Assembly: GCA_016787925.1 (NCBI GenBank)
Contig: JAEUSK010000205.1
Span: forward strand, 1 to 39,024
Direction of reading: 5' to 3'
Source: a bacterium
GTDB lineage: Bacteria > CLD3 > SB21
Length of the DNA: 39,024 bases
Shown: one piece after another, positions 3,085 to 39,024 of the stretch
Layout of the letters: each line of letters starts with the position of its first letter
Numbering within the stretch: position 1 is the stretch's first letter
The notes under the pieces: model-generated
Database searches by the model: none
What the model saw: only the letters and a program-made list of their open reading frames with translations
Told to the model about the DNA's origin: nothing
Made by a program: the position numbers and the translations under genes

Positions 3085-3089
3085 GATTG

Positions 3090-3161
3090 AGCCACAAGCG
3101 GGATTTGAACCTGCGACCTGCTGTTTACGAAACAGCTGCTCTACCGCTGAGCTATTGTGGC
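3090..3161 (-). tRNA. tRNA-Thr(CGU)
   Basis: Cloverleaf on the - strand. Acceptor stem GCCACAA/TTGTGGC, D arm GCTC/GAGC, anticodon stem GCTGT/ACAGC with loop TTCGTAA (anticodon CGU, codon ACG), variable loop AGGTC, and T loop TTCAAAT. The T stem GCAGG/CCCGC has one A-C mismatch at its middle pair. The discriminator base at 3090 is T and no CCA is encoded. A Bacteroidota-type promoter lies 19 nt upstream of the 5' end. Confidence 0.92.
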
Positions 3162-3359: not shown

Positions 3360-3743
3360 ATGCTCGTTGACGAAAAATTTCGCATTGGAACCCTTGTTGA
3401 CAAAGCTAATGAAAGCCTCGGGGCGGCTGAATTGCTTATAGACGAGAAGCAGTACGAAGAATCAATATTGCGATGTTATCATGCTGTTTTTTTTACGCTG
3501 CGGGCATTCCTAAAAAAAAATAAGATCGAATTAGAAAAAACTTCTGATTCGATACCGGTATTCAAGGCGCGCTTTATTGACACAAAAGTGCTTTCATTGG
3601 CTTTGTACGACGATTTGTTAGAAGTCGTAAATGCCGGAGGATTTGAAAATCAATCCAACCCGCCCGCAGCAGATGAAGTATTAGCTCGTGAGGTTTACGA
3701 AAAAGCAGACCGATTTTATTTCACATTGACAGATTTAATATAA
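3360..3743 (+). CDS. HEPN-domain-like small protein
   Basis: A 127-aa all-helical protein. Its first half (ANESLGAAELLIDEKQYEES, then RCYHAVFFTLRAFLKK) fits the HEPN fold: a helix with spaced Ala/Leu, then a Tyr/His/Ala/Phe-rich helix. The C-terminal half lacks the R-x(4-6)-H motif of HEPN ribonucleases, so it is more likely a structural or binding version than a toxin. It is the first gene of the cluster, 14 nt upstream of the ATP-grasp gene, and is probably co-transcribed with it. The preceding 200 nt (3162-3359) are very AT-rich, hold the tRNA-Thr promoter on the other strand, and presumably the cluster promoter. The HEPN call is from pattern only; the partner or substrate is unknown. Confidence 0.65.
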   Translation: MLVDEKFRIGTLVDKANESLGAAELLIDEKQYEESILRCYHAVFFTLRAFLKKNKIELEKTSDSIPVFKARFIDTKVLSLALYDDLLEVVNAGGFENQSNPPAADEVLAREVYEKADRFYFTLTDLI

Positions 3744-3757
3744 GTAGAGGAGTCGCC

Positions 3758-4765
3758 ATGTCTGAAATAGCCCGAATCGGAGTTTTGCGGGGAATGGAAA
3801 CAACTTTTCCTGATGCTTTGATTGCCAATATCAATAAAGTAGCAACTGAGAAAAAGTTAAAAGTTGCCGCTGAATTCATAATGCTTGGCGGGACGAAAAT
3901 GAGGGAGCCATCCGGTTACAAAGTGATTATTGACAGAATTTCACATGAAGTTGCTTATTATCGGGCATATCTGAAGAATGCGGTTCTTGGCGGAACTGAT
4001 GTAATTAATAACCCTTTTTGGTGGTCGGCCGATGATAAATTTTTTAATTATTCCCTTGCCGATAAGATGGGGATACCTGTTCCTAAAACGGTGATTCTCC
4101 CGCACCATCAGCATCCGCCAAATACAACCTCGGAGTCTTTTCGTAATTTGACTTTTCCACTTCCGTGGGACCAGCTTTTTGAATACGTTGGTTTTCCGGC
4201 TTTTTTGAAACCATTTGACGGTGGAGGATGGCGGCACGTATATAAAGTTGAATCCGCCGATGACTTTTTCGACAGGTATAATCAGACAGGTGATTTGTGT
4301 ATGGTATTGCAGGAAAACATAAACTTTGAAGAATATTATCGATGTTACTGCATAAACAAAAAACATGTTCGCATCATGCAGTTTGATCCCGGTGCAGACC
4401 CTGTAAACAGATACGTAAAGAATCCGGCACCGCTGAACGACAAGAAAGCAAAGCAAATTGAAAAATATTGTGTGGATATATGCACGGCATTGGGTTATGA
4501 TCTTAACACGCTTGAATTTGCCGTGCGGGACGGTGTTCCTTATGCAATCGATTACATGAATCCCGCACCCGACTGCGATTACTATTCCGTGACTCCTCCC
4601 AATTTTGAATGGGTTGTTGACAAGGTTACTGAAATGGCCATTGATCGCGCTTTACACCACCAGCCCTATGCCGGGGAATTCCGATGGAATCAGTTTCTCA
4701 ACGGCAAGGAATCGGGCACGTCAAAGCTCCGGACGGCCAAAAAGAGCACATCTAATACAGAGTGA
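3758..4765 (+). CDS. ATP-grasp ligase family protein
   Basis: A 335-aa protein with the layout of an ATP-grasp ligase. An N-terminal pre-ATP-grasp region (residues 1-110) is followed by a lid/ATP-binding segment with FPAFLKPFDGGGWRHVYKV near 146-164, the VLQENINFEEYYRC strand, and a C-terminal catalytic part with LNTLEFAVRDGVPYAIDYMNPAPD, in which the E and D/N residues are typical metal ligands. Such enzymes activate a carboxylate as acyl-phosphate and join it to an amine or thiol. A ribosome binding site (GAGGAG) precedes the ATG. The gene is followed 11 nt later by a circularly permuted ATP-grasp gene, so two sequential ligations are plausible. The last 20 residues are Lys/Ser/Thr-rich and probably disordered. 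Substrate unknown. Confidence 0.82.
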   Translation: MSEIARIGVLRGMETTFPDALIANINKVATEKKLKVAAEFIMLGGTKMREPSGYKVIIDRISHEVAYYRAYLKNAVLGGTDVINNPFWWSADDKFFNYSLADKMGIPVPKTVILPHHQHPPNTTSESFRNLTFPLPWDQLFEYVGFPAFLKPFDGGGWRHVYKVESADDFFDRYNQTGDLCMVLQENINFEEYYRCYCINKKHVRIMQFDPGADPVNRYVKNPAPLNDKKAKQIEKYCVDICTALGYDLNTLEFAVRDGVPYAIDYMNPAPDCDYYSVTPPNFEWVVDKVTEMAIDRALHHQPYAGEFRWNQFLNGKESGTSKLRTAKKSTSNTE

Positions 4766-4776
4766 GAGATTAGCCG

Positions 4777-6138
4777 ATGGTTAGTATTCCGGAGAGTATC
4801 CAATACTATAACGACCTTCTTGAAAAAAGCGAATCGAAGATCGCAGATCTTTTTGCAGTTTTCATGAACGAATGTCAATCGCAAAAGTTGACATTTGGCG
4901 GACGTTCGATGTACAATTTTATTCGCCCGAATTTTATTTCCGTAGAACAATATGAATACATTCGATACGTCTGCGGCATTCTGCGGAATACCATAACCAA
5001 ATTTAAAAATGCGGCTCTGTCGAATCCCCATATCATGGCTCAGGCAGGCGTTAATGCTCGAGAGAAAGAACTTGTTGATATTCATCCCGGTTATGATCGG
5101 TTGTCCATAACGGCCAGATGGGATTCATTTATGCACGGTGATTCCCTTAAATTTGTTGAATTGAATGCAGAATGTCCTGCTGGTATTGCATATTCAGATG
5201 TTGCGGCTGAAGTTTATGACCGATTTCCATTTGTAACTGAATTTAAGAAAAGGTACTCGGTTGAAAAGTGTCAGATACGTCAGACACTATTAGACGGTCT
5301 TTTAGAAACATATGACGTCTATGGCGGTAACAAGAGGAATAAAAAGCCTGTCATTGCCATAGTCGACTGGCGAGACGTTCCGACGTATACTGAGTTTGAA
5401 CTCTTTCAGGAATTTTTTGAGTCAAAAGGATACAATTGTGTGATTGCAGATCCGCGGGATCTGGTGTATGAAAATGATATCTTGCGGCTTGAAGATACGG
5501 AGATCGATCTTGTTTACAAACGTATTCTGACCAATGATTGTGTTGAACGCCCCGAAGAGACTCAGACCCTGGTTGACGCATACAGAGACCACAACGTTTG
5601 CATGATTAATCCGTTTCGAGCTAAGATGGTTCACAAGAAATCGATTTTTGCCGTACTAACACATGAGAAAAACCATGACATGTTCAACGGTGAAGAACTT
5701 TCCGTTATCACAAAGCACATTCCGTGGACCCGTATAATACAAGAGGAAAAAACAGTCTATCGTGGCGCGAAAATTGACCTGATTTCTTACATCTCATCTA
5801 ATAAGGATGAATTTGTTATCAAGCCAAATGATGAATACGGCGGCAAGGGAGTATTTCTTGGGAAAGAAACGTCTGCAGACAATTGGAATGTCGTAATACA
5901 AGAGGCCCTGTCCGGTGAAATTTATGTAGTTCAGGAGCTCGTGCCAATCCCAAGAGTTCCGTTTCCTATTGTCGAAGACAACAAGATAAAGTATGTGGAC
6001 ATGGTCGTTGACATGGATCCATATGTTTTTGGTGCCAAAGTAGAGGGTATTTTGACAAGGTTATCCTCTTCGTCACTCGCTAATGTGACTGCTGGCGGGG
6101 GAACGACACCCACATATATCCTTGATGAAATCAGCTAA
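4777..6138 (+). CDS. Circularly permuted ATP-grasp protein
   Basis: A 453-aa protein resembling the circularly permuted ATP-grasp proteins described by Iyer and co-workers around COG2308. Features are an acidic/Asn catalytic segment early in the chain (SLKFVELNAECPAGIAYSD, residues about 124-142), a central Rossmann-like section (KPVIAIVDWRDVP), and the ATP-binding glycine loop late (FVIKPNDEYGGKGVFLG, about 348-364). The end has SSSLANVTAGGGTTPTYIL. The inverted order of these elements relative to a normal ATP-grasp is the main argument. It follows the linear ATP-grasp gene after 11 nt; a 131-nt AT-rich gap separates it from the YbdK-like ligase, where a further promoter may sit. It probably makes an amide or peptide bond on a small molecule or peptide; the exact product is unknown. 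Confidence 0.8.
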   Translation: MVSIPESIQYYNDLLEKSESKIADLFAVFMNECQSQKLTFGGRSMYNFIRPNFISVEQYEYIRYVCGILRNTITKFKNAALSNPHIMAQAGVNAREKELVDIHPGYDRLSITARWDSFMHGDSLKFVELNAECPAGIAYSDVAAEVYDRFPFVTEFKKRYSVEKCQIRQTLLDGLLETYDVYGGNKRNKKPVIAIVDWRDVPTYTEFELFQEFFESKGYNCVIADPRDLVYENDILRLEDTEIDLVYKRILTNDCVERPEETQTLVDAYRDHNVCMINPFRAKMVHKKSIFAVLTHEKNHDMFNGEELSVITKHIPWTRIIQEEKTVYRGAKIDLISYISSNKDEFVIKPNDEYGGKGVFLGKETSADNWNVVIQEALSGEIYVVQELVPIPRVPFPIVEDNKIKYVDMVVDMDPYVFGAKVEGILTRLSSSSLANVTAGGGTTPTYILDEIS

Positions 6139-22134: not shown

Positions 22135-22207
22135 GGGGACATAGCTCAGCTGGGAGAGCGCAAGGCTGGCAGTCTTGAGGTCAGGGGTTCGATCCCCCTT
22201 GTCTCCA
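22135..22207 (+). tRNA. tRNA-Ala(GGC)
   Basis: Complete cloverleaf. Acceptor stem GGGGACA/TGTCTCC (one G-U), D arm GCTC/GAGC, anticodon stem CAAGG/TCTTG with loop CTGGCAG (anticodon GGC, codon GCC), variable loop AGGTC, and T arm AGGGG-TTCGATC-CCCCT. Discriminator A at 22207, CCA not encoded. The 3' side faces the genomic island, and the recombinase gene ends inside this tRNA on the other strand, so this is the probable insertion locus. Confidence 0.97.
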
Positions 22208-23717
22208 CACCCTGTATGACTAAGCATTTTTTTGCTTGGTCATTTTTTTTGTACGGCCGTAGAACATTGATATTACTGCGTAAAATGGCCAGTGCAGGAT
22301 TGAGAAAAGGGGTTCGACCGCCGGTTTTGGACAGTATGATCTTCTGCGGAAAAATCACGTTCAAAAGTTTCAATTTCTTGACAGTTTCCAATTGTAAGTA
22401 CCATGAATCCAAGTGTTGAAGAAGCTGCAATGTGAACCTTACTAGGGGTTCGACCGTACGGGTATTATTTTCTCCAATCACAAGGATTTTGTCCTGGATT
22501 TCGTTATTTTCTTTTGTGTAGCGCTCCCGCGCGGCCTTGTATTGAATCTCGTCGACAACACCTGCAAGGAGCTTGTCCGTTAACTTGATAAGCTTTTCAT
22601 CAATAATTTTTTGTGCGTTTTTCAGTCTGGATAAATTCTCTTTTCGACTGTTTTCGTCATTGGCATTGCGATCCCATATTTGTTCTTCGACTATGGCGCA
22701 CCATTCCCGTTCGATCTTTATTGACTTCAGATAATCAACGATCCATGTATTGGCCACTTTTGCCGGAATTCTTGTTTTGCACGGTGATTTGCAGTGATAG
22801 TACGGAAAGCGACCACCGTGCCGACCTTTAGAAAAACTTGCGGTTAATAGTCTCGGAGAACAATCCGCACACTCCAGAATTCCACGTAACGGAAACTCAT
22901 CATTGACCTTATTGAAGAAGAGCTTTCTGAATTTCCCGTCAAGGACACTTTGGACTCTGTTAAATGTGATTCGATCAACTATCTTTTCGTGACTTGCTTC
23001 AACCGTGTGGCCGACACCCTTCTCGGTATAATTGATTATTCCGGTGTAGCATTGGTTCCTGAGCATACGTGGATATTGCGTTTTACTAATGTTCAGCATG
23101 TATTTTGTATTTATGTAACTTCGAATCTGTTCAATCGAGTAATTTCCAGTCGCGAATTCTTTAAAGAGTTCTTGGATGACAGGAGCCTTACTATTCTGGA
23201 CAAGGCGTTTCTGTCCGTTTTCATTCTTGTATGAATACCCCAAAGGCGCCTTTGTGACCCACCGGCCTATTTTCAGTGCCCGGAGATTGCCTGCACGGAT
23301 GTTTAAGCTGCGTCTGCGATTTTCACTTTCCGGAGTAGCAACGTATACGGCGAGAAGAATAGCTTGCTCTGGAATTGAGAAATCAATCGGTTGTTCAACA
23401 GCTTGGACAGCAACTCCCATATCCTCAAATAATCTGATGAGCACGTAAGCGTCATGCGTGGTTCGTGAAAAACGATCCCATTTTAACACGAGAAACTCAT
23501 CAATCTCACTTTTGTGAGTCTTTGCGTATTGAATGGCTTTGAGCAGTTCAGGTCGTCCTTCGATATTCTTTGCAGATGCGTCTTCACGAAATATCATCGC
23601 TACGTCCTTCTGACGCTGTGCGCAGTTATTAAGCAACTTCTCCTCCTGATGACCCAAGCTGTATCCTGATGCTTGTTCGTCAGTAGAAACTCGACAATAA
23701 ATAATGGTTTTTTTCAT
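22146..23717 (-). CDS. Large serine recombinase (site-specific integrase)
   Basis: A 523-aa large serine recombinase. The resolvase domain has the catalytic Ser11 (YCRVSTDEQASGYS), DEFLVLKWDRFSRTTHDAY with the active-site arginines, and AVYVATPESENRRRS. A recombinase domain (about 170-275) is followed by a zinc ribbon (CADC near 280, HCKSPC near 308) and a coiled coil (about 350-420). The end of a normal protein is near the GGRTPFLNPALAIL segment. The last roughly 38 residues, including RGIEPLTSRLPALRSPS, are antisense to the tRNA-Ala terminator and tRNA-Ala itself, so they are probably host sequence picked up on integration. The gene ends the island on the tRNA side and very likely catalysed its insertion. 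The start at 23717 gives the canonical MKKTIIYCRVST. Confidence 0.94.
   Translation of the reverse strand: MKKTIIYCRVSTDEQASGYSLGHQEEKLLNNCAQRQKDVAMIFREDASAKNIEGRPELLKAIQYAKTHKSEIDEFLVLKWDRFSRTTHDAYVLIRLFEDMGVAVQAVEQPIDFSIPEQAILLAVYVATPESENRRRSLNIRAGNLRALKIGRWVTKAPLGYSYKNENGQKRLVQNSKAPVIQELFKEFATGNYSIEQIRSYINTKYMLNISKTQYPRMLRNQCYTGIINYTEKGVGHTVEASHEKIVDRITFNRVQSVLDGKFRKLFFNKVNDEFPLRGILECADCSPRLLTASFSKGRHGGRFPYYHCKSPCKTRIPAKVANTWIVDYLKSIKIEREWCAIVEEQIWDRNANDENSRKENLSRLKNAQKIIDEKLIKLTDKLLAGVVDEIQYKAARERYTKENNEIQDKILVIGENNTRTVEPLVRFTLQLLQHLDSWYLQLETVKKLKLLNVIFPQKIILSKTGGRTPFLNPALAILRSNINVLRPYKKNDQAKKCLVIQGVETRGIEPLTSRLPALRSPS
22216..22250 (+). terminator. Terminator of tRNA-Ala
   Basis: ATGACTAAGCA (22216-22226) pairs with TGCTTGGTCAT (22233-22243) with one G-U, six-T loop, followed by eight T (22243-22250). 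It lies 9 nt after the tRNA and inside the 3' end of the recombinase gene on the opposite strand. Confidence 0.88.
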
Positions 23718-27267: not shown

Positions 27268-28677
27268 TCAAAAGCCTTGAATGGGGCTAGATTTGAGATT
27301 TCTAAGGTAGAAACGCTCCGCCTTTGAAAAAGGTCGCTTCCAAACTGTTATACACTCTTTTTCCAATGAAAGTGTTGCAGCCGCCAAATCTCGAGCTTGA
27401 ATGATAAACCGAAGACTCCTGCGATGGACATGTTGAGAAAAGAAACCCCATGGATCGTCGTTGATGCATTTAGCCAATGATAGAACCGTTTCTGTAGGCT
27501 TTCCAAAATACGCTTTGGCGACACACCCAACAATTTTGATTGCAGAGTCAACACTTTTGTGCCGAAACTCTTTTTTGTCGGTCAATGCTTGCGACATTTC
27601 GTGAATCTTGCTTAAATCAAAATTCTCATCAGAACAAGCTAATCGGAATTCAGACATTCGATTACGATATTCTAAGGATTCGGAGCGCATTTCTTTTGCG
27701 ATCTCTACCCAGTTGGGTTTGTTATAATCTTGTATCTTTTTCATTAATACAGCCAGGCTTGGATTAAGCTGCAACAAAGGCATTTCAGCAATTGGAGGTT
27801 CTTGGGGTTCGGTAGAGTGCATTACGGCATTCATGAGTTTAATGTTCAGTTTTGGATTCAAATAGTCCTTCTGATGATCCAAACATTCTACTGGGATAAA
27901 GTTAACAGCAACACCTCTCATTCCGCAAGACAAATATGGGCACCTCAAATATTCTGACAGACAGTAGTAGAAAATTGATCTGTAAGTATGGTATGAAGCC
28001 AATACTGACAGCCTCTTTGAATCGGTAAGAGTGTAAAGAGGTGAAGTCGGTTTCACAACCTGTGATTTCCAATCTGCATACGTCCCCCCAAGGAATTCAG
28101 CATCATTGTGTAATTCAGGACTAAGAGGCTGAGACGGTGAAGTCAATAAGCGGTCCATCGTGTGCGGACTGAAGAAATAGGAGGGCTTGATGTCAGATAC
28201 TTGCAATATTCTTCCCCACGCTCCTGACCATTTTGTGTGCAGTGAACTGCGCTTTCTAAATTCTGTTTGAATGGTTGTAAAAATCAAATAAACTTGATTC
28301 GCAACAGAATCGTCTTTTTTGAACTCGTCTTTCCAATTCACAATAGTTAGGCTCGGAACGATTTCTTGAATTTGACGCCTCTCGTCTACGCTCAATCCGT
28401 GGTCTAGCAAGATCAAGTCGTCAAAATGTGTTAGAGCAAAGAACAATATGGAAAGATCAGGAATCAATGCTGCGTGAAATGAATCTGGAGCACTGAGTCC
28501 AGAGTTCATCAAAGTAAGCGCATTGTGAATGGTTGTGTTGTCCAACAGTGCAGCCCGATTTGGTGTGGGAACCAGACCTTTCAATTTATCCCAGATTGGG
28601 TTGGTCTCAAAATCGAGATCAATATACTTTTTACCAAGCCTGGCATACGACTTTTTTAGTAATTGAAGTTCAGTCAT
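27268..28677 (-). CDS. Unknown 469-aa defence-island protein
   Basis: A 469-aa protein without a recognisable catalytic motif. The N-terminal half contains alternating hydrophobic segments (IPDLSILFFALTHFDDLILLDHGL) and the middle part a Cys cluster (YYCLSEYLRCPYLSCGMRG). The C-terminal third is helical and basic (DKKEFRHKSVDSAIKIVGCVAKAYFG, then RRSLRFIIQARDLAAATLSLE). A strong AAAGGAGG site precedes the ATG, and the reading frame of hsdS remnant B runs into the start, giving translational coupling. Because it sits in an hsdS-bounded cassette next to type I modification and Hachiman genes, a role in defence is plausible but not shown. It is intact. Confidence 0.7.
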   Translation of the reverse strand: MTELQLLKKSYARLGKKYIDLDFETNPIWDKLKGLVPTPNRAALLDNTTIHNALTLMNSGLSAPDSFHAALIPDLSILFFALTHFDDLILLDHGLSVDERRQIQEIVPSLTIVNWKDEFKKDDSVANQVYLIFTTIQTEFRKRSSLHTKWSGAWGRILQVSDIKPSYFFSPHTMDRLLTSPSQPLSPELHNDAEFLGGTYADWKSQVVKPTSPLYTLTDSKRLSVLASYHTYRSIFYYCLSEYLRCPYLSCGMRGVAVNFIPVECLDHQKDYLNPKLNIKLMNAVMHSTEPQEPPIAEMPLLQLNPSLAVLMKKIQDYNKPNWVEIAKEMRSESLEYRNRMSEFRLACSDENFDLSKIHEMSQALTDKKEFRHKSVDSAIKIVGCVAKAYFGKPTETVLSLAKCINDDPWGFFSQHVHRRSLRFIIQARDLAAATLSLEKECITVWKRPFSKAERFYLRNLKSSPIQGF

Positions 28678-28775: not shown

Positions 28776-28876
28776 AAACCTATAAGGTTTATCGAATCTT
28801 ATAACGATTTCAAAATATTTCATCAAACTGATGGCGGAGTTAGTAACGAGTTTGATCGCATAAACCTTATAGGTTT
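28776..28876. mobile_element. 101-bp MITE- or REP-like element
   Basis: A 17-bp perfect terminal inverted repeat (AAACCTATAAGGTTTAT at 28776-28792 with its reverse complement at 28860-28876) bounds a 67-nt core, which has its own inverted pair ATCAAACT/AGTTTGAT. The element overlaps the last bases of the hsdS stop codon on one side and cuts remnant B on the other. No coding capacity. No clear target duplication is visible. Confidence 0.6.
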
Positions 28877-29972
28877 AACTCACCAACTCCCCCTTAAAAG
28901 CCCTCTGCATCAAACTCTGAAACAAATTCTCCAATTCCTGCTCCGATGCGCGCTGCTTCGTGCGCATGGCTTCAACTTTCTCGACCAGTGCAGCGAATTT
29001 TTGTTGTAAGAACAGAGGTGGAAAATAGACATTAAATGTCTCCAATATTTTTGGACTAATTCGTGGTAGATTCGCTCCGGCGGATAGAGATGTAGCCTTA
29101 TCTACAAAAGATTTGTGTTTCATATGGTAGGCAAGAAAGAATTTGTTTGATTTTCCTTTGATAGGCATTATTGGGATAATGTCAGTACTGCAAATGCCAC
29201 TTATATTCGGAATACACACTTTGTTAAGATACGGTCGAAGTTTTCCATATAATATGTGTTCAGATGTAAAAATGAATTTGTTGCTCTTCAAATCCGCATC
29301 AAACGCATTCTGATAACCGATTAATCTTCCCGACTCTTTTTCAATGTGTTCTAAACCTACATAAAAGGAATCCTTCGGAATATTCAAAGGTAGAATTCCA
29401 TCTTTCTCAATGTCAGCGATTTTATTAAACGTGTTAACATCCCACCCCTTCGGATTTGTCACCGGATCGCCGAACATTTCGAGGAAGGCGGACTGGAGAA
29501 ATTTGTCCGTGAGTTCGATTGTTTGTCGACGTTTTTCGCGGGCGGCGTCGGCTTTCTCAAGTATCGCGGCGATGCGCTTCTGGATGGGAAGAGGAGGAAG
29601 AGGGATTTTGAAATCTGTTATGTTGTGCAGTCTTATGTAATTTGTTGCAGATCCGTATTGTTTCCAAATAACTGAAAACTTCCAAAGTCCTTTCAAGAAA
29701 TAGAAAATGTATGGTGCATGCTCCTTAAAATTATGAAGGACGTATGTTCGCTGATACGCCTCGAACTTGCCGTGATAGAACATGACAAGCCCGACATTTG
29801 CACCATTTCCGGGCAATAAAATTGCATCGCCATCAAAGGAATAACTATTACTTCTCAGGGGCAAAGCTGCACAAGTAAAAAATGGATAGAGCCCGTCATT
29901 GGCACCTTCGTTTACGTCCTTCTCCCCTGTTGTGACAGTGCAGACTTCAGAAATTTTTCTGTATCCTATCAC
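28875..29972 (-). CDS. hsdS: Type I restriction-modification specificity subunit
   Basis: A 365-aa HsdS that determines the DNA target of the HsdM complex. The first target recognition domain (residues 1-125) is followed by a conserved coiled coil (LPPLPIQKRIAAILEKADAA, 128-147) and the SAFLEMFGDPVTNPKGW linker. The second recognition domain (about 180-320) is followed by the second coiled coil ending in LMQRAFKGELVS. The ATG overlaps the hsdM stop by 4 nt. The stop codon lies at the edge of the inverted-repeat element. Two further copies of the 3' end lie downstream, so this gene end has been duplicated. Confidence 0.95.
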   Translation of the reverse strand: MIGYRKISEVCTVTTGEKDVNEGANDGLYPFFTCAALPLRSNSYSFDGDAILLPGNGANVGLVMFYHGKFEAYQRTYVLHNFKEHAPYIFYFLKGLWKFSVIWKQYGSATNYIRLHNITDFKIPLPPLPIQKRIAAILEKADAAREKRRQTIELTDKFLQSAFLEMFGDPVTNPKGWDVNTFNKIADIEKDGILPLNIPKDSFYVGLEHIEKESGRLIGYQNAFDADLKSNKFIFTSEHILYGKLRPYLNKVCIPNISGICSTDIIPIMPIKGKSNKFFLAYHMKHKSFVDKATSLSAGANLPRISPKILETFNVYFPPLFLQQKFAALVEKVEAMRTKQRASEQELENLFQSLMQRAFKGELVS

Positions 29973-31450
29973 TTCATCATCCCCCTTATCTCTTCCATAT
30001 CTCTCTCAATCCCCTTTTCCAATTCCAGAATCTTATTCATGATCACATCTGGCGTTTCATATTCGATTTCCGTGTGAACGATCTCTTTGTATCGTGAAAT
30101 GGAAAGATCGTATTTGTTTGAGCGAATATCTTTGACCGGCACAAGAAATGATTTCTTTGAAGCTTTCTTCTTTTCCCATTGTTTGATGATGTCCGGAATA
30201 TCATTCGCCTCGATGCGCTGGCGCTTATCGTCAAGAGAAAATCCGTCGGCTTCCATATCGTAAAACCAGACTTTGTCCGTCGTGCCGCCTTTCTGGAATA
30301 TCAGCACTGCCGTGGAAACGCCCGCATACGGCTTGAATACGCCCGAAGGCATGGAGATCACCCCTTCCAGGCCGCATTGATCCACGATGATCTTCCGGAT
30401 CGCCAGATGCGCGTTACTCGTTCCGAATAGCACGCCGTCGGGCACGATCACGCCCGCCCTGCCGCCGTTTTTCAGCAAGCCGTAGATCAATTCGATAAAC
30501 AGCAGTTCCGTTTTGGTCGTGCTGGTCGTAAAACGCTCATTGATATCACTTTTGTCAATCGAGCCTTTGAATGGCGGATTGGCTAAGATCACGTCGTATT
30601 CCGATTTTTCGGTAAACGCCTTCGACATGGTATCGGTGTAAACGCAGCGCGGATTGTCAATGCCGTGCAGCATCAGGTTCATCGCGCCGATACGCACCAT
30701 CGTGGAATCGAAATCGTATCCCGTGAGCGCGCGGCTTTTCAGGAATTGCATCAGCTTCTTATCCGCGATCTTATCGCCGATCAGGTGGTGCGCCTTTCCG
30801 TCTTCGTCGCGTTCAATCAGATCGGGAGTGGTGTTTTCTTCGAGAATCTGTTCGTACGCCGCGACGAGAAAGCCGCCCGTGCCGCAGGCCGGATCGCAAA
30901 TGCGCTGGCCGATCTTCGGATCGACGAGTTTCGTGATCATGCGAATGATATGCCGCGGGGTGCGGAATTGGCCATTCTTGCCGGAGGTGGTAAGCTGGCT
31001 CAGCAAATACTCATACAGATCGCCCTGCACGTCCACGTTTTGTTCCGAAATGTGCATATCGTCGATGATCTTGACCGCTTCCTGCAAGAGCGACGCTTTC
31101 GGAATGACAAACACGGCGTCTTCCATGTGCTGTGTGAATGTGCTCGTCTCCCCGCCAACTTCCCGCAGGAAATCGAACACCTTATCGCGCACATGTTTCA
31201 GCATCTGATCGCCGGGCAATTGACTCCAGTGCGACCATTTGCATTCTTTATTTCCGTGGAATACTGAGCGGTACGTTTCATTTCTCCGCTTGGCCGCGGC
31301 TGCGCGGGCATTGTCCATGTCTTCCAATCTTTTCAGGAAGATCAGATAGGACATTTGTTCGATGGCCGTCAGCGGATTTGATATTCCGCCGGACCAGAAT
31401 TTGTCCCAGAGGGAATCGATTTTGGATTTTAGTTCAGGGTTTGTGAGCAT
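29969..31450 (-). CDS. hsdM: Type I restriction-modification DNA methyltransferase subunit
   Basis: A 493-aa N6-adenine methyltransferase. An N-terminal helical HsdM domain (LWDKFWSGGISNPLTAIEQMSYLIFLKRLED) is followed by the SAM-binding motif CDPACGTGGFLVAAY (near 185) and the catalytic NPPF (near 290), all intact. It methylates the bipartite target chosen by HsdS to protect host DNA. It starts 3 nt after the hamB stop and overlaps hsdS by 4 nt, so it is read in one transcript with Hachiman. The segment at about 30250-31350 is clearly more GC-rich than the flanking hamB and hsdS genes, suggesting a separate origin. No hsdR is present in the window. Confidence 0.96.
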   Translation of the reverse strand: MLTNPELKSKIDSLWDKFWSGGISNPLTAIEQMSYLIFLKRLEDMDNARAAAAKRRNETYRSVFHGNKECKWSHWSQLPGDQMLKHVRDKVFDFLREVGGETSTFTQHMEDAVFVIPKASLLQEAVKIIDDMHISEQNVDVQGDLYEYLLSQLTTSGKNGQFRTPRHIIRMITKLVDPKIGQRICDPACGTGGFLVAAYEQILEENTTPDLIERDEDGKAHHLIGDKIADKKLMQFLKSRALTGYDFDSTMVRIGAMNLMLHGIDNPRCVYTDTMSKAFTEKSEYDVILANPPFKGSIDKSDINERFTTSTTKTELLFIELIYGLLKNGGRAGVIVPDGVLFGTSNAHLAIRKIIVDQCGLEGVISMPSGVFKPYAGVSTAVLIFQKGGTTDKVWFYDMEADGFSLDDKRQRIEANDIPDIIKQWEKKKASKKSFLVPVKDIRSNKYDLSISRYKEIVHTEIEYETPDVIMNKILELEKGIERDMEEIRGMMK

Positions 31451-31453
31451 GGG

Positions 31454-33610
31454 TTATAATATTTCCTTCAATTTTCTTATTTCATACGGCAGAAGACCAA
31501 GTTCAGACAGATTGAGCGTCCTAATCACATCTAACGCGTTCAATTCATTCTGCGATATTTTGGATTTCAATTGCATAAGGGCAGATGACGGAACATCGTA
31601 TTCCAAAAGAATCGAAAGATTTGATGGAAGAAACTTTCTCTCAAGCTCAGATATGAAATACGTGTAATCTCCTGCTGCATAGCCGTTTAATTCAAAAACA
31701 TATACTTGCATTTTATGCATGCAATTGAGCAAGCTCGGAAGTTTGAAATCAAACCAATGCTTGGCAATGTGGAAAACTTCACTAACAACCACTTGAATTC
31801 GTCGATAATCGTCGGGCTCTTCAGTTTTCCAGAATTGACTATCTATTGCTCTGTTAATTATACCCACAAGAGATTTTTGTTCATAGTACTGCAATGTATA
31901 GAGCGTAAGCTGGCGTGGACTGACACGACCAGCTTCTCTTGGTTTCAACAGAAACTGAAAAGCTAGCTCAAGAGTTCGCGCCAACTGATTGAAACTTGGT
32001 ATTCTATTCCAGTTCAGCAGTTCATCTAAATCGCCAACTTGCGAGTCCATGTAATCAAAAAGACTGGACTGACCTTCAAATGGAAACCCAACATTCGATT
32101 TGATTACCTTCTTTAATTCCTCTTCTATTGGCAACCTTTCCATCCGCTGTCTTGCAGAATCTGACAAATCTGCGTCCTCTAATTGAATAAGAAGTTCCAA
32201 AGGTGCATTTTGTTGATCAAAAAGCGGTATCTCAAGATCAATTTCCATTTGGGCTGGATCAGGGTAGAATTGCCACACCTTCCCCGTGTAATATATTTTC
32301 ATTCGCCCCGACCGTCCTACAATATTCTTGTAATCAAAAAAGTCCATCGGTTTGGGGCCCTTTTTCTTGTCGAACAAAACAACATTCTTGGCAACAGTAT
32401 TAACTCCCTCCATCAAAGTGGATGTGCAGAACAAATACTGTAAGAGCCCATCATTAAACAAATCTACAATTGTACTTCCCAAATGTCTTGGAAGTGAGCC
32501 ATGATGTACACCCATTCCCTTCTTGAGTCCGTCAGCTAAAAACCATTGAGGATGAATGTTCATTTTTATCCATTCGACTAATTCAGTTATCTCGCCGTCT
32601 GGTTCAGGTTGTTCAGCACCTTGCACTCCGTTTAGCGTAGCAGCGTAGGATTGAAGCAATTCGTTAGCCTTATCTGGACTTGAGCAGTAAATCAAGGTAG
32701 GCTCATGAAAAGTAGTCAACAATTCAAATAATGCACGTTCTCTTTCGTCCCGTTTCTTGCCAGATTCTATTCTTTGAATGTCAACCGCCACTGTAGAAAA
32801 ACGAGTGTTGTGGAATAGACAATTGTGTTGTTCCAAAAATATGGGAGATACATCGTGGACATTTGGACCAAGCATGTAGAAATTATGCGTATGCTTCAGC
32901 AATTTATACAATGCGTAATTCAAGGATATTGCACGGTCATCCTCTCTTTGCATACTCAGTTTGTAAAACTCATCTATCACAAAGAAATCAATATTTGGCA
33001 GATCATTATATTCAACCACTCTTTCCGCAGTCAGTAAAAACAAATTATTCTCCTTTGCGGATTGGGAAGTTGATATAATGATATTGTAATAGTCTGAGTA
33101 TTTGCGAAGTTTTTTTCGAGTTTCATCTAGAAGGGCCAACGTTGGTTGTATGATCACAATATTTTTGTATTTACGACTCGATACAACTTCTTCAATTAGG
33201 AGGCTCTTTCCAAAACTTGTTGGCGCACTTAAGACAACGCTTCGCCTTCCCTCCAGAGCTGTCGATAGGAGTAGTTGTTCTTCATGCAAATAGATGTCTC
33301 CCGGCAAGAACTTGGAGTGGTGCGATTCTAGACTGAGAGCTGTAGAGACTGGCAAAACCATTTGTCTATCTTGTAAATAAGTATATAATCCCGATTTTTC
33401 AATTAATGATGTCCATAGGTGATGTGTTTGTGTGTTAATTGACTCCCACGCATCTAAAGCGCGGATTATTAACTCTCGCCCAGATTCTTGGGTTTCAGCG
33501 TTCGATAGAATGCGGTTGCAGCTTTCCGCGGCATCGAAACTCGTAGCAAAATCAATTTCATGCCCGGAAGAAAATAATTCCCTGATCTGAACATATGTTA
33601 GTAAGTTCAT
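31454..33610 (-). CDS. hamB: Hachiman helicase HamB
   Basis: A 718-aa superfamily 2 helicase of the Ski2-like type. It has Walker A APTSFGKS (129-136), a DEFY motif II (213-216), STLMEGVNTVAKNVVLF (397-413, motif V region) and VGRSGR (431-436, motif VI). The C-terminal 250 residues are helical and specific. With HamA upstream, it forms the Hachiman anti-phage pair, in which the helicase is thought to sense DNA damage or invasion and free the HamA nuclease. It overlaps hamA by 4 nt (ATGA). The motif II residue after DE is Phe rather than the common Ala/Cys, which is not unusual for this branch. Confidence 0.88.
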   Translation of the reverse strand: MNLLTYVQIRELFSSGHEIDFATSFDAAESCNRILSNAETQESGRELIIRALDAWESINTQTHHLWTSLIEKSGLYTYLQDRQMVLPVSTALSLESHHSKFLPGDIYLHEEQLLLSTALEGRRSVVLSAPTSFGKSLLIEEVVSSRKYKNIVIIQPTLALLDETRKKLRKYSDYYNIIISTSQSAKENNLFLLTAERVVEYNDLPNIDFFVIDEFYKLSMQREDDRAISLNYALYKLLKHTHNFYMLGPNVHDVSPIFLEQHNCLFHNTRFSTVAVDIQRIESGKKRDERERALFELLTTFHEPTLIYCSSPDKANELLQSYAATLNGVQGAEQPEPDGEITELVEWIKMNIHPQWFLADGLKKGMGVHHGSLPRHLGSTIVDLFNDGLLQYLFCTSTLMEGVNTVAKNVVLFDKKKGPKPMDFFDYKNIVGRSGRMKIYYTGKVWQFYPDPAQMEIDLEIPLFDQQNAPLELLIQLEDADLSDSARQRMERLPIEEELKKVIKSNVGFPFEGQSSLFDYMDSQVGDLDELLNWNRIPSFNQLARTLELAFQFLLKPREAGRVSPRQLTLYTLQYYEQKSLVGIINRAIDSQFWKTEEPDDYRRIQVVVSEVFHIAKHWFDFKLPSLLNCMHKMQVYVFELNGYAAGDYTYFISELERKFLPSNLSILLEYDVPSSALMQLKSKISQNELNALDVIRTLNLSELGLLPYEIRKLKEIL

Positions 33611-34503
33611 ATTTGCTGCATACTCCTTAAGCGCTCATCAAGGGTTGTCACAAGCTGCTCTTTTGATGGAATTGGTAATAGCATTAGGATTACATCAATA
33701 TCTGTTTCAATATGCCCTTCGTCAAATTTAGTTTTCAATTTTCTACATTCACTCACGAATGTATCAATGTAATCTTGACTCTCAGAAGTATGATTGTCAA
33801 AAATTGGGCTTGTGTATGTGCAAACCATCGGTAAACAAATTCGTTGAACAATTGCATCCAAAGTTTGATGCTCGTGTAATAACAGAATCCATTTATCACG
33901 ATCTGGAAATTCAATAGGCACCTTTGTTGATATTAGGCTGAATTCTCTACGTAGATAGTCCTCTTTCAAATGATTTTCGAGATCTCCAAGCAGGGATGCA
34001 ATACCAGCAGCGCCGTCAGTATAGATTTTCGATTCCCCCAACCACATTGTTGCATTTTCAGCAACTACGTGAACGCCATCAAAACCGTGCACGGTTGAAT
34101 TATCTGAATCCTTAAAGTAGATTTTGGATATTAATGGTATTGTGCCACAGAAATCTCTCAATAATAGATGCAGTATTAGTTCCCCAAATTCACCGCGCCT
34201 TCCGTATTTGTCTGTAGTGTAGACCCTCTTAGCGGCTTCTCTTAGACGATTAACTATCTTTGTCTGGTCAACAGTGGCTCCCTGATGTAATCCGAAAACA
34301 AACTCCGGAATGACGCTGCAAATGACGTCCACAAGAGGTTTAAGGCGAAATACATTTTGATCAAAACCCACATGATATGCGCGAAGCTCGGCTTCAGATA
34401 TTTGTTCTCTCATTACCAAGTGAGAACTAAATGGAGGAGGTGGCAATTCCTCATGTTCGTCAGTAGATGGCAATCCTTCAAGTGCGTCGTCTATCGGTTT
34501 CAT
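33607..34503 (-). CDS. hamA: Hachiman nuclease-like protein HamA (DUF1837)
   Basis: A 298-aa DUF1837 protein. The core GEFGELILHLLLRDF (104-118), GFDGVHV (Asp142) and LGESK (Glu157, Lys159) gives a PD-(D/E)xK-like nuclease arrangement, which is the reported HamA active site. The N-terminal 40 residues are Pro- and acid-rich and probably flexible. HamA is the effector of Hachiman and is reported to degrade DNA non-specifically when released by HamB. It starts 1 nt after the stop of the upstream 300-aa gene and overlaps hamB by 4 nt. The catalytic residues are intact, so the pair is expected to be active. Confidence 0.88.
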   Translation of the reverse strand: MKPIDDALEGLPSTDEHEELPPPPFSSHLVMREQISEAELRAYHVGFDQNVFRLKPLVDVICSVIPEFVFGLHQGATVDQTKIVNRLREAAKRVYTTDKYGRRGEFGELILHLLLRDFCGTIPLISKIYFKDSDNSTVHGFDGVHVVAENATMWLGESKIYTDGAAGIASLLGDLENHLKEDYLRREFSLISTKVPIEFPDRDKWILLLHEHQTLDAIVQRICLPMVCTYTSPIFDNHTSESQDYIDTFVSECRKLKTKFDEGHIETDIDVILMLLPIPSKEQLVTTLDERLRSMQQI

Positions 34504-34504
34504 C

Positions 34505-35407
34505 TCATGTTTTTTCCTTATGAGTCAAATATTCTCGCAGTCTGATTGTATTGCACCAGCTCCCAATGCTCCTATTGAACATTTGGTATGCAATTCTTGA
34601 GGGCGACCAATTCATCAGTCGAGCACCAATGACACACTGTCTTGGGTTGCTGGAACAAATCAGTTGTTCCGATTCATTTGGTATTTCAATTGGAGTGATT
34701 TCTACTAACGCCTCCTCTACTGATAACAATCCGGCATTTACTAATGCTGCCAATTGAATCGGATGATCATAATCTCCTCTTCCACGACCAACGACTCCGA
34801 CAAAATGTCCTCCACAAATAGCCACAATATCAAGATAAGCCCTCAAAACAGATGTGCCAACAATATTTCCAACTCGAATGTCGCGAACTGTACACCAGTG
34901 TTCCCACACCCTACCGCCGTCCTTTGGAGATTCAACGTCGTGCTCATAATCCTGGCGCAAGTTATTGTTGAATTTGTCCGCCGTATCCCGTACTGATCGC
35001 GCAGAAATGTGACCAAGAGAGGTGCCTTCAACAAAACCTAACATTGTTGGACCATCAAGAAGAGCCTTTCCTTCACTCGAATTCAAAGGAAATGTCGTGA
35101 CATTCTCCCTTGAACATTCGACTGTAACTGTTGCCGTATAGATATCTATTACAGGGAGATGTGAAATCTCAACCCACAATAGTTCTCCGGATGGCCTACG
35201 AAAAACTGCGCAAGCTGCAGCCAAATGACAAAGAATATGCCAAGCCCCATAATCAAAATCACCTGGATCGCCAGGTCCGAGGGCATTATTTACGATGGCC
35301 TTGTCTAAGAATAGCTCCCGCAACTTTTCAAGGTTGTGTGAATTAGAGATAACATTGCCTTCTTTAGTAATCTCGAACTCGTATGTTCCACGTATTGAAC
35401 TGCTCAT
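34505..35407 (-). CDS. Unknown 300-aa protein in the defence operon
   Basis: A 300-aa protein; the ATG at 35407 was chosen because it overlaps the stop of the upstream gene (ATGA). The open frame is 24 codons longer but that part lies inside the upstream gene. I do not recognise a family. Visible are an early LGPGDPGDFDYGAWHILCHLAAACA segment, a beta-rich middle (LLWVEISHLPVIDIYTATVTVE), GFVEGTSLGHISARSVRD and a Gly-rich GGHFVGVVGRGRGDYDHP. It lies between the MfnB-like gene and hamA with 4- and 1-nt junctions. It may be an accessory of Hachiman or act on the product of the MfnB-like enzyme; both are inference. Confidence 0.7.
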   Translation of the reverse strand: MSSSIRGTYEFEITKEGNVISNSHNLEKLRELFLDKAIVNNALGPGDPGDFDYGAWHILCHLAAACAVFRRPSGELLWVEISHLPVIDIYTATVTVECSRENVTTFPLNSSEGKALLDGPTMLGFVEGTSLGHISARSVRDTADKFNNNLRQDYEHDVESPKDGGRVWEHWCTVRDIRVGNIVGTSVLRAYLDIVAICGGHFVGVVGRGRGDYDHPIQLAALVNAGLLSVEEALVEITPIEIPNESEQLICSSNPRQCVIGARLMNWSPSRIAYQMFNRSIGSWCNTIRLREYLTHKEKT

Positions 35408-36120
35408 TGTACACCTGGAAGAAGTTGAGAAACAAGCTCTGATCTTACAGTTCCTCCTCGATCGGTAACACTTCCGCACGCTGCACTTCTAACGCAAATG
35501 ACGTCCACTCCTGTTTGCCACAGTTTCTTTATTTGGGTTAGTTTAATTGAGCCAGCTATCCACGCTTCTAGCTTTGCTTTATGGCAATTATCAACAAAAC
35601 TCTTAATCTTTCTTACGTCCACATAATCCAATAAATCCTTATGTATTTCTTTATTATAGGTATCAATCAGAATACCATCAATCTTATCAAAGTTAGCTAA
35701 CCATGCAACCTGAATGAATGGATCGAATGACTTTCTTAGAGCCGTATCAACAAAAAACGCCGGAATTACCTTGCTTCTCGGATACCAGTGTTTTATTGTT
35801 CTGCTCACTCGATCAGTGAGCATTTCTACCTTGTCTCTGTTCAAACCGGCCATACCAATCTTGATTATATCCGCTCCTGCTGTTGCGACTCCAAGTCCCA
35901 TTTGGCAAGCCGTCTTCCTGTTTAACTGTTTCTCGCCTATATTTGTTGAAACAGTTATCCCCTTATGCTTCAAAGCCAGACTCTTAATAGTCGCGATATT
36001 TAGAGGATATACTTTCCCCAGCGCTGATTCGGGGTATTCAGCGTCTACAATCCTGGCGCCCCCTACAATTGCCACCAAAGCTTCTTTTGGCCCACGAACA
36101 CTAACTAATAATTTCTGCAT
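35404..36120 (-). CDS. MfnB-like TIM-barrel protein (methylfuran phosphate synthase family)
   Basis: A 238-aa protein resembling MfnB ((5-formylfuran-3-yl)methyl phosphate synthase), which makes the furan precursor of methanofuran from two glyceraldehyde-3-phosphates. Matching segments are MQKLLVSVRGPKEA (strand 1), GGARIVDAEYPESALG, TAGADIIKIG, LIDTYNKE and ICVRSAACG. Against the M. jannaschii active-site set (Asp25, Lys27, Lys85, Lys155), this protein keeps Asp26, Lys87 and Lys157 but has Glu28 where the lysine thought to form the Schiff base should be. The ATG at 36120 with an AGGAG site was chosen; the frame is open 20 codons upstream. It follows the methyltransferase-nuclease gene by 10 nt. 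The reaction is therefore uncertain. Confidence 0.75.
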   Translation of the reverse strand: MQKLLVSVRGPKEALVAIVGGARIVDAEYPESALGKVYPLNIATIKSLALKHKGITVSTNIGEKQLNRKTACQMGLGVATAGADIIKIGMAGLNRDKVEMLTDRVSRTIKHWYPRSKVIPAFFVDTALRKSFDPFIQVAWLANFDKIDGILIDTYNKEIHKDLLDYVDVRKIKSFVDNCHKAKLEAWIAGSIKLTQIKKLWQTGVDVICVRSAACGSVTDRGGTVRSELVSQLLPGVQ

Positions 36121-37673: not shown

Positions 37674-39024
37674 TTAACTAATATCTTCTTCAGTACTGGA
37701 ATAGGGACTTGAATGACATATCACCTTATAATATGGCTCAGCAGATTGCTGGAAATGTGAACGTTTTTCTGTAATTAATTCATCGAAATTGATCTGTCTT
37801 TCAAACGCCAAGTTAAGCTCATCGCCATCTATGAATAATATCATTTTCTCATTACGTTTACCCTTTGCCCAGGCAACCGCACTTGTTGTAAAACCGGACA
37901 TAGAAATTAGCAGCCCAGCAACGCTAACGGTATCTAACTTGTTAAAAAACATTCCGACGGCGTTTTTATCAAGTGGATCCTTTTCCCATTTGCACTCAAA
38001 TCGATAACCTAAGTTATTATGTTCGAAGTATCCATCAATTTGATCTTGATATGACTCAGGATTGGTTTGATATAAATTGCGGTAAGAGGGTTTTACAATC
38101 GAAATTGTCAGAGCCAGCAATTGATAAAAAAGCCTCTCAAGTTCAAACCCTCTCCTATTCTCGTCATTATCCAAAGATTGCAACTGTTTGAATTTATCGC
38201 GCAGTTGTTTGAACTTTATCATCCCGACTATCTGATGCGTTTGTTCGTTGTATGACATTGCATTCGCTTTGAGTTTCTTGCTTGGTCTTAACGATGGCTT
38301 CATCTGATAGAGAATCTCTAAAGTTGATCTCCACGAAGTAAAGCGCCTATCTGAATGGCTTCCGGCATCATTAAGAAGTTTTTTTGCTTCGTCCAAGGAA
38401 GACTCGTCAGATTTCGACTCAATAAGAAATCTAGCTAAGTTAGTCTGGCATATTGCATCCTTACCTCCACCAAGCTTCAATGCGTACCTATACAACATTT
38501 CTGCAGTGTGTGGTTCGTCTAAAAATGTACTAACATAATTACCAAGTTGGGTCCAAGCACCGGGCATATTTATACCTAATAAAAATCCTTGCAATGCTAT
38601 GTCGTCAAATGCTTCTTGACCGATTTCACCTAATTTTGACCAATCAATCGAGATCCCATCCTTTGATAGTAAATCCAACACCATTCTTCCTGATTCAACT
38701 CCTTCGACGACCGACTTCAGAAAAGCCAAATCGATAAAAGCTCTTGCATTTTGAATCCCTGAATCAATTGCCCTTTGTAAAAGCTCAATAGCTTGTGTCA
38801 AATGATAACGGGTTATTTGCTCAGGATACTTCTGGTAATAAATCGCCAACGCAGCTTCAGCATAAACATCAGCGGACCTTAAGATTCCTCGAATATCAGA
38901 ATAACCAGTGATTGGAAAAGATTTGCATGCCTGTAAAGGCTGGAATGTCAAACGATAGAATCGCGCTAGCTGTAGCTTCGCAGATTCAAGTTGTAACACA
39001 GATGGGCGAGTCAAATAGAATTCG
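37674..39024 (-). CDS. TPR-like protein with restriction-endonuclease-like C-terminus (partial)
   Basis: At least 446 aa; the frame is open through the right edge (the apparent TTG start at 39014 need not be real), so the N-terminus may be missing. The N-terminal two thirds are helical repeats of TPR/SEL1 character (AIELLQRAIDSGIQNARAFI, AEMLYRYALKLGGG). The C-terminal part has RGFELERLFYQLL, then QIDGYFEHNNLGYRFECKWEKD, which gives the E...D...ExK pattern of PD-(D/E)xK nucleases (motif halves given separately), and SVAGLLISMSGFTTSA. It precedes the methyltransferase-nuclease gene by 124 nt in the same direction and probably belongs to the same defence island. A type IV-like sensor-nuclease role is inference. 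Confidence 0.68.
   Translation of the reverse strand, partial: EFYLTRPSVLQLESAKLQLARFYRLTFQPLQACKSFPITGYSDIRGILRSADVYAEAALAIYYQKYPEQITRYHLTQAIELLQRAIDSGIQNARAFIDLAFLKSVVEGVESGRMVLDLLSKDGISIDWSKLGEIGQEAFDDIALQGFLLGINMPGAWTQLGNYVSTFLDEPHTAEMLYRYALKLGGGKDAICQTNLARFLIESKSDESSLDEAKKLLNDAGSHSDRRFTSWRSTLEILYQMKPSLRPSKKLKANAMSYNEQTHQIVGMIKFKQLRDKFKQLQSLDNDENRRGFELERLFYQLLALTISIVKPSYRNLYQTNPESYQDQIDGYFEHNNLGYRFECKWEKDPLDKNAVGMFFNKLDTVSVAGLLISMSGFTTSAVAWAKGKRNEKMILFIDGDELNLAFERQINFDELITEKRSHFQQSAEPYYKVICHSSPYSSTEEDIS

Follow-up and report, generated by a model that had tools for sequence, protein, structure and literature searches.

The MfnB family is known for the synthesis of a methane-cycle cofactor, and its reaction converts two molecules of glyceraldehyde-3-phosphate to 4-HFC-P. 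The window, by which is meant the whole 39,024-nucleotide stretch of bacterial DNA analyzed here, carries an MfnB-like gene within a run of defense genes. This raises the question of whether the encoded protein still carries out the MfnB reaction or serves another purpose in this setting. The relevant features of the window are the following:

37674..39014, minus strand: Mrr_cat-type restriction endonuclease protein (PF04471, E = 1.6e-5); its start is uncertain because the open reading frame runs to the contig end
36131..37549, minus strand: fusion protein of a class I SAM methyltransferase and a PD-(D/E)XK-type nuclease domain, matched by PDC-M36A, a PADLOC candidate
35404..36120, minus strand: MfnB-like TIM-barrel protein, 238 amino acids (PF04476 match, 4rc1 match, residue counts, AF2 model)
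34505..35407, minus strand: orphan protein P2, 300 amino acids (placed by its coordinates)
33607..34503, minus strand: HamA, Hachiman effector nuclease (PF08878, E = 1.7e-52; PADLOC HamA, E = 3e-90)
31454..33610, minus strand: HamB, Hachiman helicase (PADLOC HamB, E = 2e-219)
29969..31450, minus strand: HsdM, type I DNA methyltransferase (family matches; GC3 of 0.66)
28875..29972, minus strand: HsdS, type I specificity subunit (family matches)
27268..28677, minus strand: uncharacterized 469-amino-acid protein at the end of the defense gene run, without a family match of note
22146..23717, minus strand: large serine recombinase of the island (Resolvase and Recombinase domains)
22135..22208, plus strand: tRNA-Ala(GGC) (ARAGORN), closely followed by the island boundary at 22257

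Fold and active site of the MfnB-like protein

The MfnB-like open reading frame is intact, running from an ATG at 36120 to a stop codon ending at 35404, and its start is preceded by a ribosome-binding-like sequence (AGTGAGGAGAGAATA-ATG). PF04476 (MfnB, 4-HFC-P synthase) matches the whole protein (E = 1.3e-42, profile positions 1 to 227 of 228), and the sole sequence match in the PDB is MJ1099 of M. jannaschii (4rc1/4u9p, E = 4.2e-23). The AF2 model, built with 38 relatives, has a mean pLDDT of 88 and a pTM of 0.88, and superimposes on MJ1099 with a TM score of 0.91 to 0.92 at 32% identity. The full-length profile match and the fold place the protein in the MfnB fold family, of whose 33 conserved positions it retains 24. 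Its best score of 136.6 bits falls below the NCBI equivalog cut-off for 4-HFC-P synthase, which is 304. The next structural neighbors of the model are the ribulose-phosphate 3-epimerase and 3-hexulose-6-phosphate synthase barrels (TM scores of 0.6 to 0.7, 11 to 17% identity). According to its title, one of the crystal entries of MJ1099 carries PRPP.

MfnB requires two lysines and two aspartates, and its Schiff base is formed by Lys27 (PMC6604932). Alignment of the window protein with MJ1099 places Glu28 at the position of Lys27, so that the Schiff-base lysine of a 4-HFC-P synthase is lacking. This column is lysine in all 96 members of a first family set, in 137 of 137 readable members of a larger set outside the branch described below, and in 62 of 62 members outside that branch after reduction to <70% identity. 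Asp26, Lys87, Asp153, and Lys157 (D25, K85, D151, and K155 in MJ1099) are kept, as is Arg211, which is also among the family-conserved residues. The alignment and the column counts confirm the preliminary description, made from the DNA letters, which had reported Asp26, Lys87, and Lys157 as retained and Glu28 in place of the lysine. The otherwise invariant Gly32 is replaced by serine, and the loop after strand 2, between Glu28 and Ser32, is one residue shorter. These changes lie in the loop at 30 to 36, where the model is least certain. The idea that the Schiff base had moved to Lys36, a new lysine in this loop, was considered and rejected because the residue is not conserved in the two relatives that share the glutamate, where it is Thr and Asn; this nearby lysine is thus not the displaced Schiff-base residue for which the preliminary description had allowed.

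A glutamate-bearing branch of the family

Relatives of the window protein are sparse. Single-protein scans of genome_contigs and viral_contigs returned none, and no recognized relative was present in the phage records and IMG/VR contigs searched; the matches listed from an alignment scan of genome_contigs were for the most part lysine-type MfnB of archaea, at about 34%. In a broad sample of 386 genomes there are 11 other PF04476 genes, and all 10 that are readable at the Lys27 column are lysine-type. Two relatives with glutamate in this column were found in a targeted sample of 395 genomes from one phylum. The one from genome G530, which belongs to another phylum than the window, is about 50% identical to the window protein (49 to 50%), and the one from G766 is a longer protein of 479 amino acids with large insertions. 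A short 49% match in a further genome (G742) proved to be an ordinary lysine-type fragment.

The three Glu-type proteins have in common the Lys-to-Glu and Gly32-to-Ser replacements, the one-residue deletion that shortens the loop, and a TNIGE.Q motif. The segment around the glutamate reads DAEYPESALG in the window protein, DVEFPASALG in G530, and DSEDPKSALG in G766. Glu and Ser at these positions are unique to the three proteins in a comparison with 62 nonredundant others, and the DNA form of the TNIGE.Q motif is present only in their three loci among the loci examined. Lys87, Asp26, and Asp153 are found in all three proteins and Lys157 in two, with Asp125 and Lys157 not clearly retained in G766. 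The three proteins form one clade (support of 100/99), which falls in the half of the tree that is mostly of archaeal type; an earlier grouping of the window protein alone with a Nitrososphaerales MfnB (93/74) was dropped as a long-branch effect after the closer relatives were found. Pairwise identities within the clade are 49, 32, and 31%, and the persistence of the glutamate over this divergence, in three sequences, argues for selection. Judged from their sequences, the Glu-type proteins are a small, previously unnoticed, divergent branch of the MfnB family with three known members.

Island, operon, and the loci of the relatives

Up to base 22257 the window is about 90% identical to two sister genomes, which carry other genes from there on. 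In the sisters, a lipoprotein-like gene is the open reading frame nearest the junction, and after it come genes which, from their translations, we take to be selD, recN, and ribH. The whole island, with its defense run, is absent from both sisters at the same tRNA-Ala site. By this comparison the defense run is part of an inserted tRNA-Ala island, since sister identity stops at 22257 in both genomes and other genes follow. Beyond HsdS lie a D5/DUF5906 primase-like pair, the large serine recombinase, the tRNA-Ala, and the housekeeping genes rimP-nusA-infB. The contig ends at 39024 and carries only the tRNA-Ala end of the island. Elsewhere, the tail of the tRNA-Ala region recurs as a 55- to 57-base copy (L156:2234-2288, contig C223 of G000) beside a gene reading as a DnaE-type polymerase, and on contig C76 (L155) the genes that follow the tRNA-Ala in the sisters are preceded by genes whose translations resemble a LexA-type repressor and a Y-family polymerase; together these suggest that the same attachment site has received a second insertion. 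At 3360 to 6138, near a tRNA-Thr (3089 to 3161), the window also contains three consecutive genes, for a HEPN protein, an uncharacterized 335-amino-acid protein, and an ATP-grasp protein of the circularly permuted kind.

On the minus strand the gene order is Mrr-type endonuclease, methyltransferase-nuclease fusion, MfnB-like gene, P2, HamA, HamB, HsdM, and HsdS. The fusion and MfnB-like genes are separated by 10 bases, the stop of the MfnB-like gene overlaps the start of P2 (ATGA), and HamA and HamB overlap; the only wide junction in the run, of 124 bases, separates the fusion from the Mrr-type gene. Because of the ATGA overlap, P2 is probably translationally coupled to the MfnB-like gene. In the fusion protein, the Pfam family Methyltransf_23 scores just below its curated cut-off, and PDC-M36A matches over 302 to 467. 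The preliminary description had placed the MfnB homologue between the fusion and Hachiman: the fusion is indeed upstream and HamA and HamB are downstream, but the gene does not adjoin Hachiman, since the 300-amino-acid orphan intervenes. P2 gave nothing of note against Pfam, NCBIfam, PADLOC, PHROGs, or the PDB, and neither plasmids nor IMG/VR nor 290 genomes yielded a relative; weak matches in G041 (a lipoprotein) and G202 (a frame with two stops) were treated as chance, and its single-sequence AF2 model (pLDDT of 33) was unusable. HsdM has a GC3 of 0.66, whereas the Hachiman and MfnB-like genes are at about 0.36, a contrast suggesting that HsdM has its own, recent origin. No HsdR was recognized among the window proteins scanned, though HsdM and HsdS are present.

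In G530, the closest Glu-type relative lies in a CBASS locus with the following genes:

L202:8406-9287: second cyclase
L202:9421-10170: MfnB-like gene, on the same strand as the CBASS genes, between NucC and the second cyclase
L202:10263-11006: NucC effector
L202:10990-11607: E2-type protein
L202:11436-12521: CBASS cyclase

The two cyclases of this locus (L202:8406-12521) differ in subtype. Gaps of 92 and 133 bases separate the MfnB-like gene from its neighbors, so that co-transcription is less certain here than in the window. In both defense loci, the MfnB-like gene directly follows a gene for a PD-(D/E)XK-type nuclease. The other partners differ, as the G530 locus lacks P2 and HamAB and the scan of window proteins revealed no cyclase, and therefore no conserved partner points to a mechanism. 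The G766 protein is encoded in a four-gene cluster (L203:9154-15088), and its partners there are a 697-amino-acid protein that no family matches with confidence, an endonuclease/exonuclease/phosphatase family protein, and a 337-amino-acid orphan. Of the neighbors checked, none is a recognized defense gene. The occurrence of two of the three Glu-type members in unrelated defense clusters suggests that a metabolic enzyme has been re-used in immunity. The preliminary description had raised the prospect of a Glu28 clade restricted to defense islands; the single clade is borne out and two of its three members lie in defense loci, but "restricted" is too strong because of the uncharacterized G766 cluster.

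A tblastn search with the window and G530 defense proteins detected no homologue in the flanks of lysine-type loci, a control biased by queries drawn from Glu-type loci, by its reach to tblastn-detectable homologues only, and by the shortness of some flanks. On a Streptomyces plasmid, a lysine-type MfnB gene shares a run with genes for an aldehyde and an alcohol dehydrogenase (L003:6995-10271), perhaps a furan natural-product route.

Proposed role and comparison with known systems

The best reading, and a moderately probable one, is that the window protein is a TIM barrel that binds sugar phosphates, has changed chemistry, and was recruited to nuclease-based defense in an accessory role; support for the defense role comes from two loci among the three known Glu-type members. 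Having lost the Schiff-base lysine, a Glu-type MfnB would no longer form 4-HFC-P in the way known for the family. A small ligand is probably still bound, because Lys87, Asp26, Asp153, Lys157, and Arg211 are retained, and this ligand would be of the phosphorylated sugar type, as MJ1099 was crystallized with PRPP and the next structural neighbors are phosphosugar barrels. Because its gene immediately follows one for a PD-(D/E)XK-type nuclease in both loci, and is coupled by ATGA to the next gene in the Hachiman operon, the protein may be an accessory part of nuclease-based phage defense. The least certain steps belong to the likeliest mechanism, namely that an acid-base or metal-assisted site around Asp26, Glu28, and Asp153 would replace the imine, and that binding or converting a phosphorylated metabolite altered during infection would inform or tune the neighboring nuclease effectors. 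Both an enzyme and a sensor fit the sequence and context data, and the changed reaction or sensor role put forward in the preliminary description is thus supported in part. A more far-reaching version, in which a portable module senses or converts a phosphorylated metabolite and controls adjacent PD-(D/E)XK nucleases in Hachiman and CBASS, possibly via a new immune signal or a nucleotide or DNA modification, is doubtful.

The main rival is that the gene is a passenger, that is, a metabolic gene with a changed reaction that travels on mobile defense-carrying islands and has no part in immunity. The mixed cargo of the window island, the differing partners, and the G766 cluster without recognized defense genes would all agree with this, whereas the short or overlapping junctions within the operon and the independent presence of the same rare subfamily inside a CBASS locus speak against it, making it rather unlikely. 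It is more improbable still that the protein remains a class I aldolase, with Lys87 or Lys157 taking over the Schiff base and an MfnB-like furan or aldol product still being made. Such a reaction could draw on Lys87, Asp26, and Asp153, which all three proteins have, and on Lys157, present in two of them, but the otherwise invariant Lys27 is the reported Schiff-base residue (PMC6604932), the new loop lysine varies among the relatives, and the altered loop is modeled with the least certainty.

Two further explanations are very improbable. Decay of the gene, with the lysine loss as mere damage, would account for the long branch of the window protein when placed alone, but it conflicts with the intact frame and its ribosome-binding-like sequence, with the 24 of 33 conserved positions retained, and with the same substitutions being conserved in relatives at 32 to 49% identity. 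Ordinary methanofuran cofactor biosynthesis would suit a member of PF04476, but this role is unlikely because the window gene is the sole PF04476 gene of its genome and FTR (formylmethanofuran transferase, PF01913), the sole marker sought, is absent from it; these absences are not absolute, as the assembly is 95% complete. The missing invariant lysine, the location on an island, and the lack of PF04476 in eight other genomes of the phylum weigh in the same direction. The methanofuran genes envisaged in the preliminary description were therefore not encountered, as far as the FTR marker is concerned.

If the recruitment of this barrel into defense is true, a biosynthetic TIM-barrel family joins the parts list of bacterial immunity, its signature (Glu27, Ser32, and TNIGE.Q) becomes searchable across all genomes, and a concrete question arises as to what a phosphosugar barrel does beside Hachiman and CBASS nucleases. 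For enzymology, the branch is a natural case of a complex, multistep imine enzyme that has exchanged its catalytic lysine for an acid and retained the remainder of its active site.

The MfnB-like gene is absent from the PADLOC models used, and none of the open-access journal papers searched links MfnB with Hachiman, CBASS, or defense. Full-length, adjacent HamA and HamB in the window operon identify a Hachiman system; two related loci (L097 and L099) have no MfnB-like gene near HamAB, and the gene is accordingly not a regular part of Hachiman. The likeness to CBASS with E2 and NucC comes from the closest relative in G530, which sits in such a locus, whereas no cyclase was matched among the window proteins scanned. 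With MfnB/MJ1099 (4rc1, 4u9p), the window protein shares the fold and Asp25, Lys85, Asp151, and Lys155, but it differs in having Glu for Lys27, Ser for Gly32, a loop shorter by one residue, and no methanofuran setting found. Ribulose-phosphate 3-epimerase and 3-hexulose-6-phosphate synthase, which are not of the same family, resemble the model as structural neighbors and are phosphosugar barrels that need no imine.
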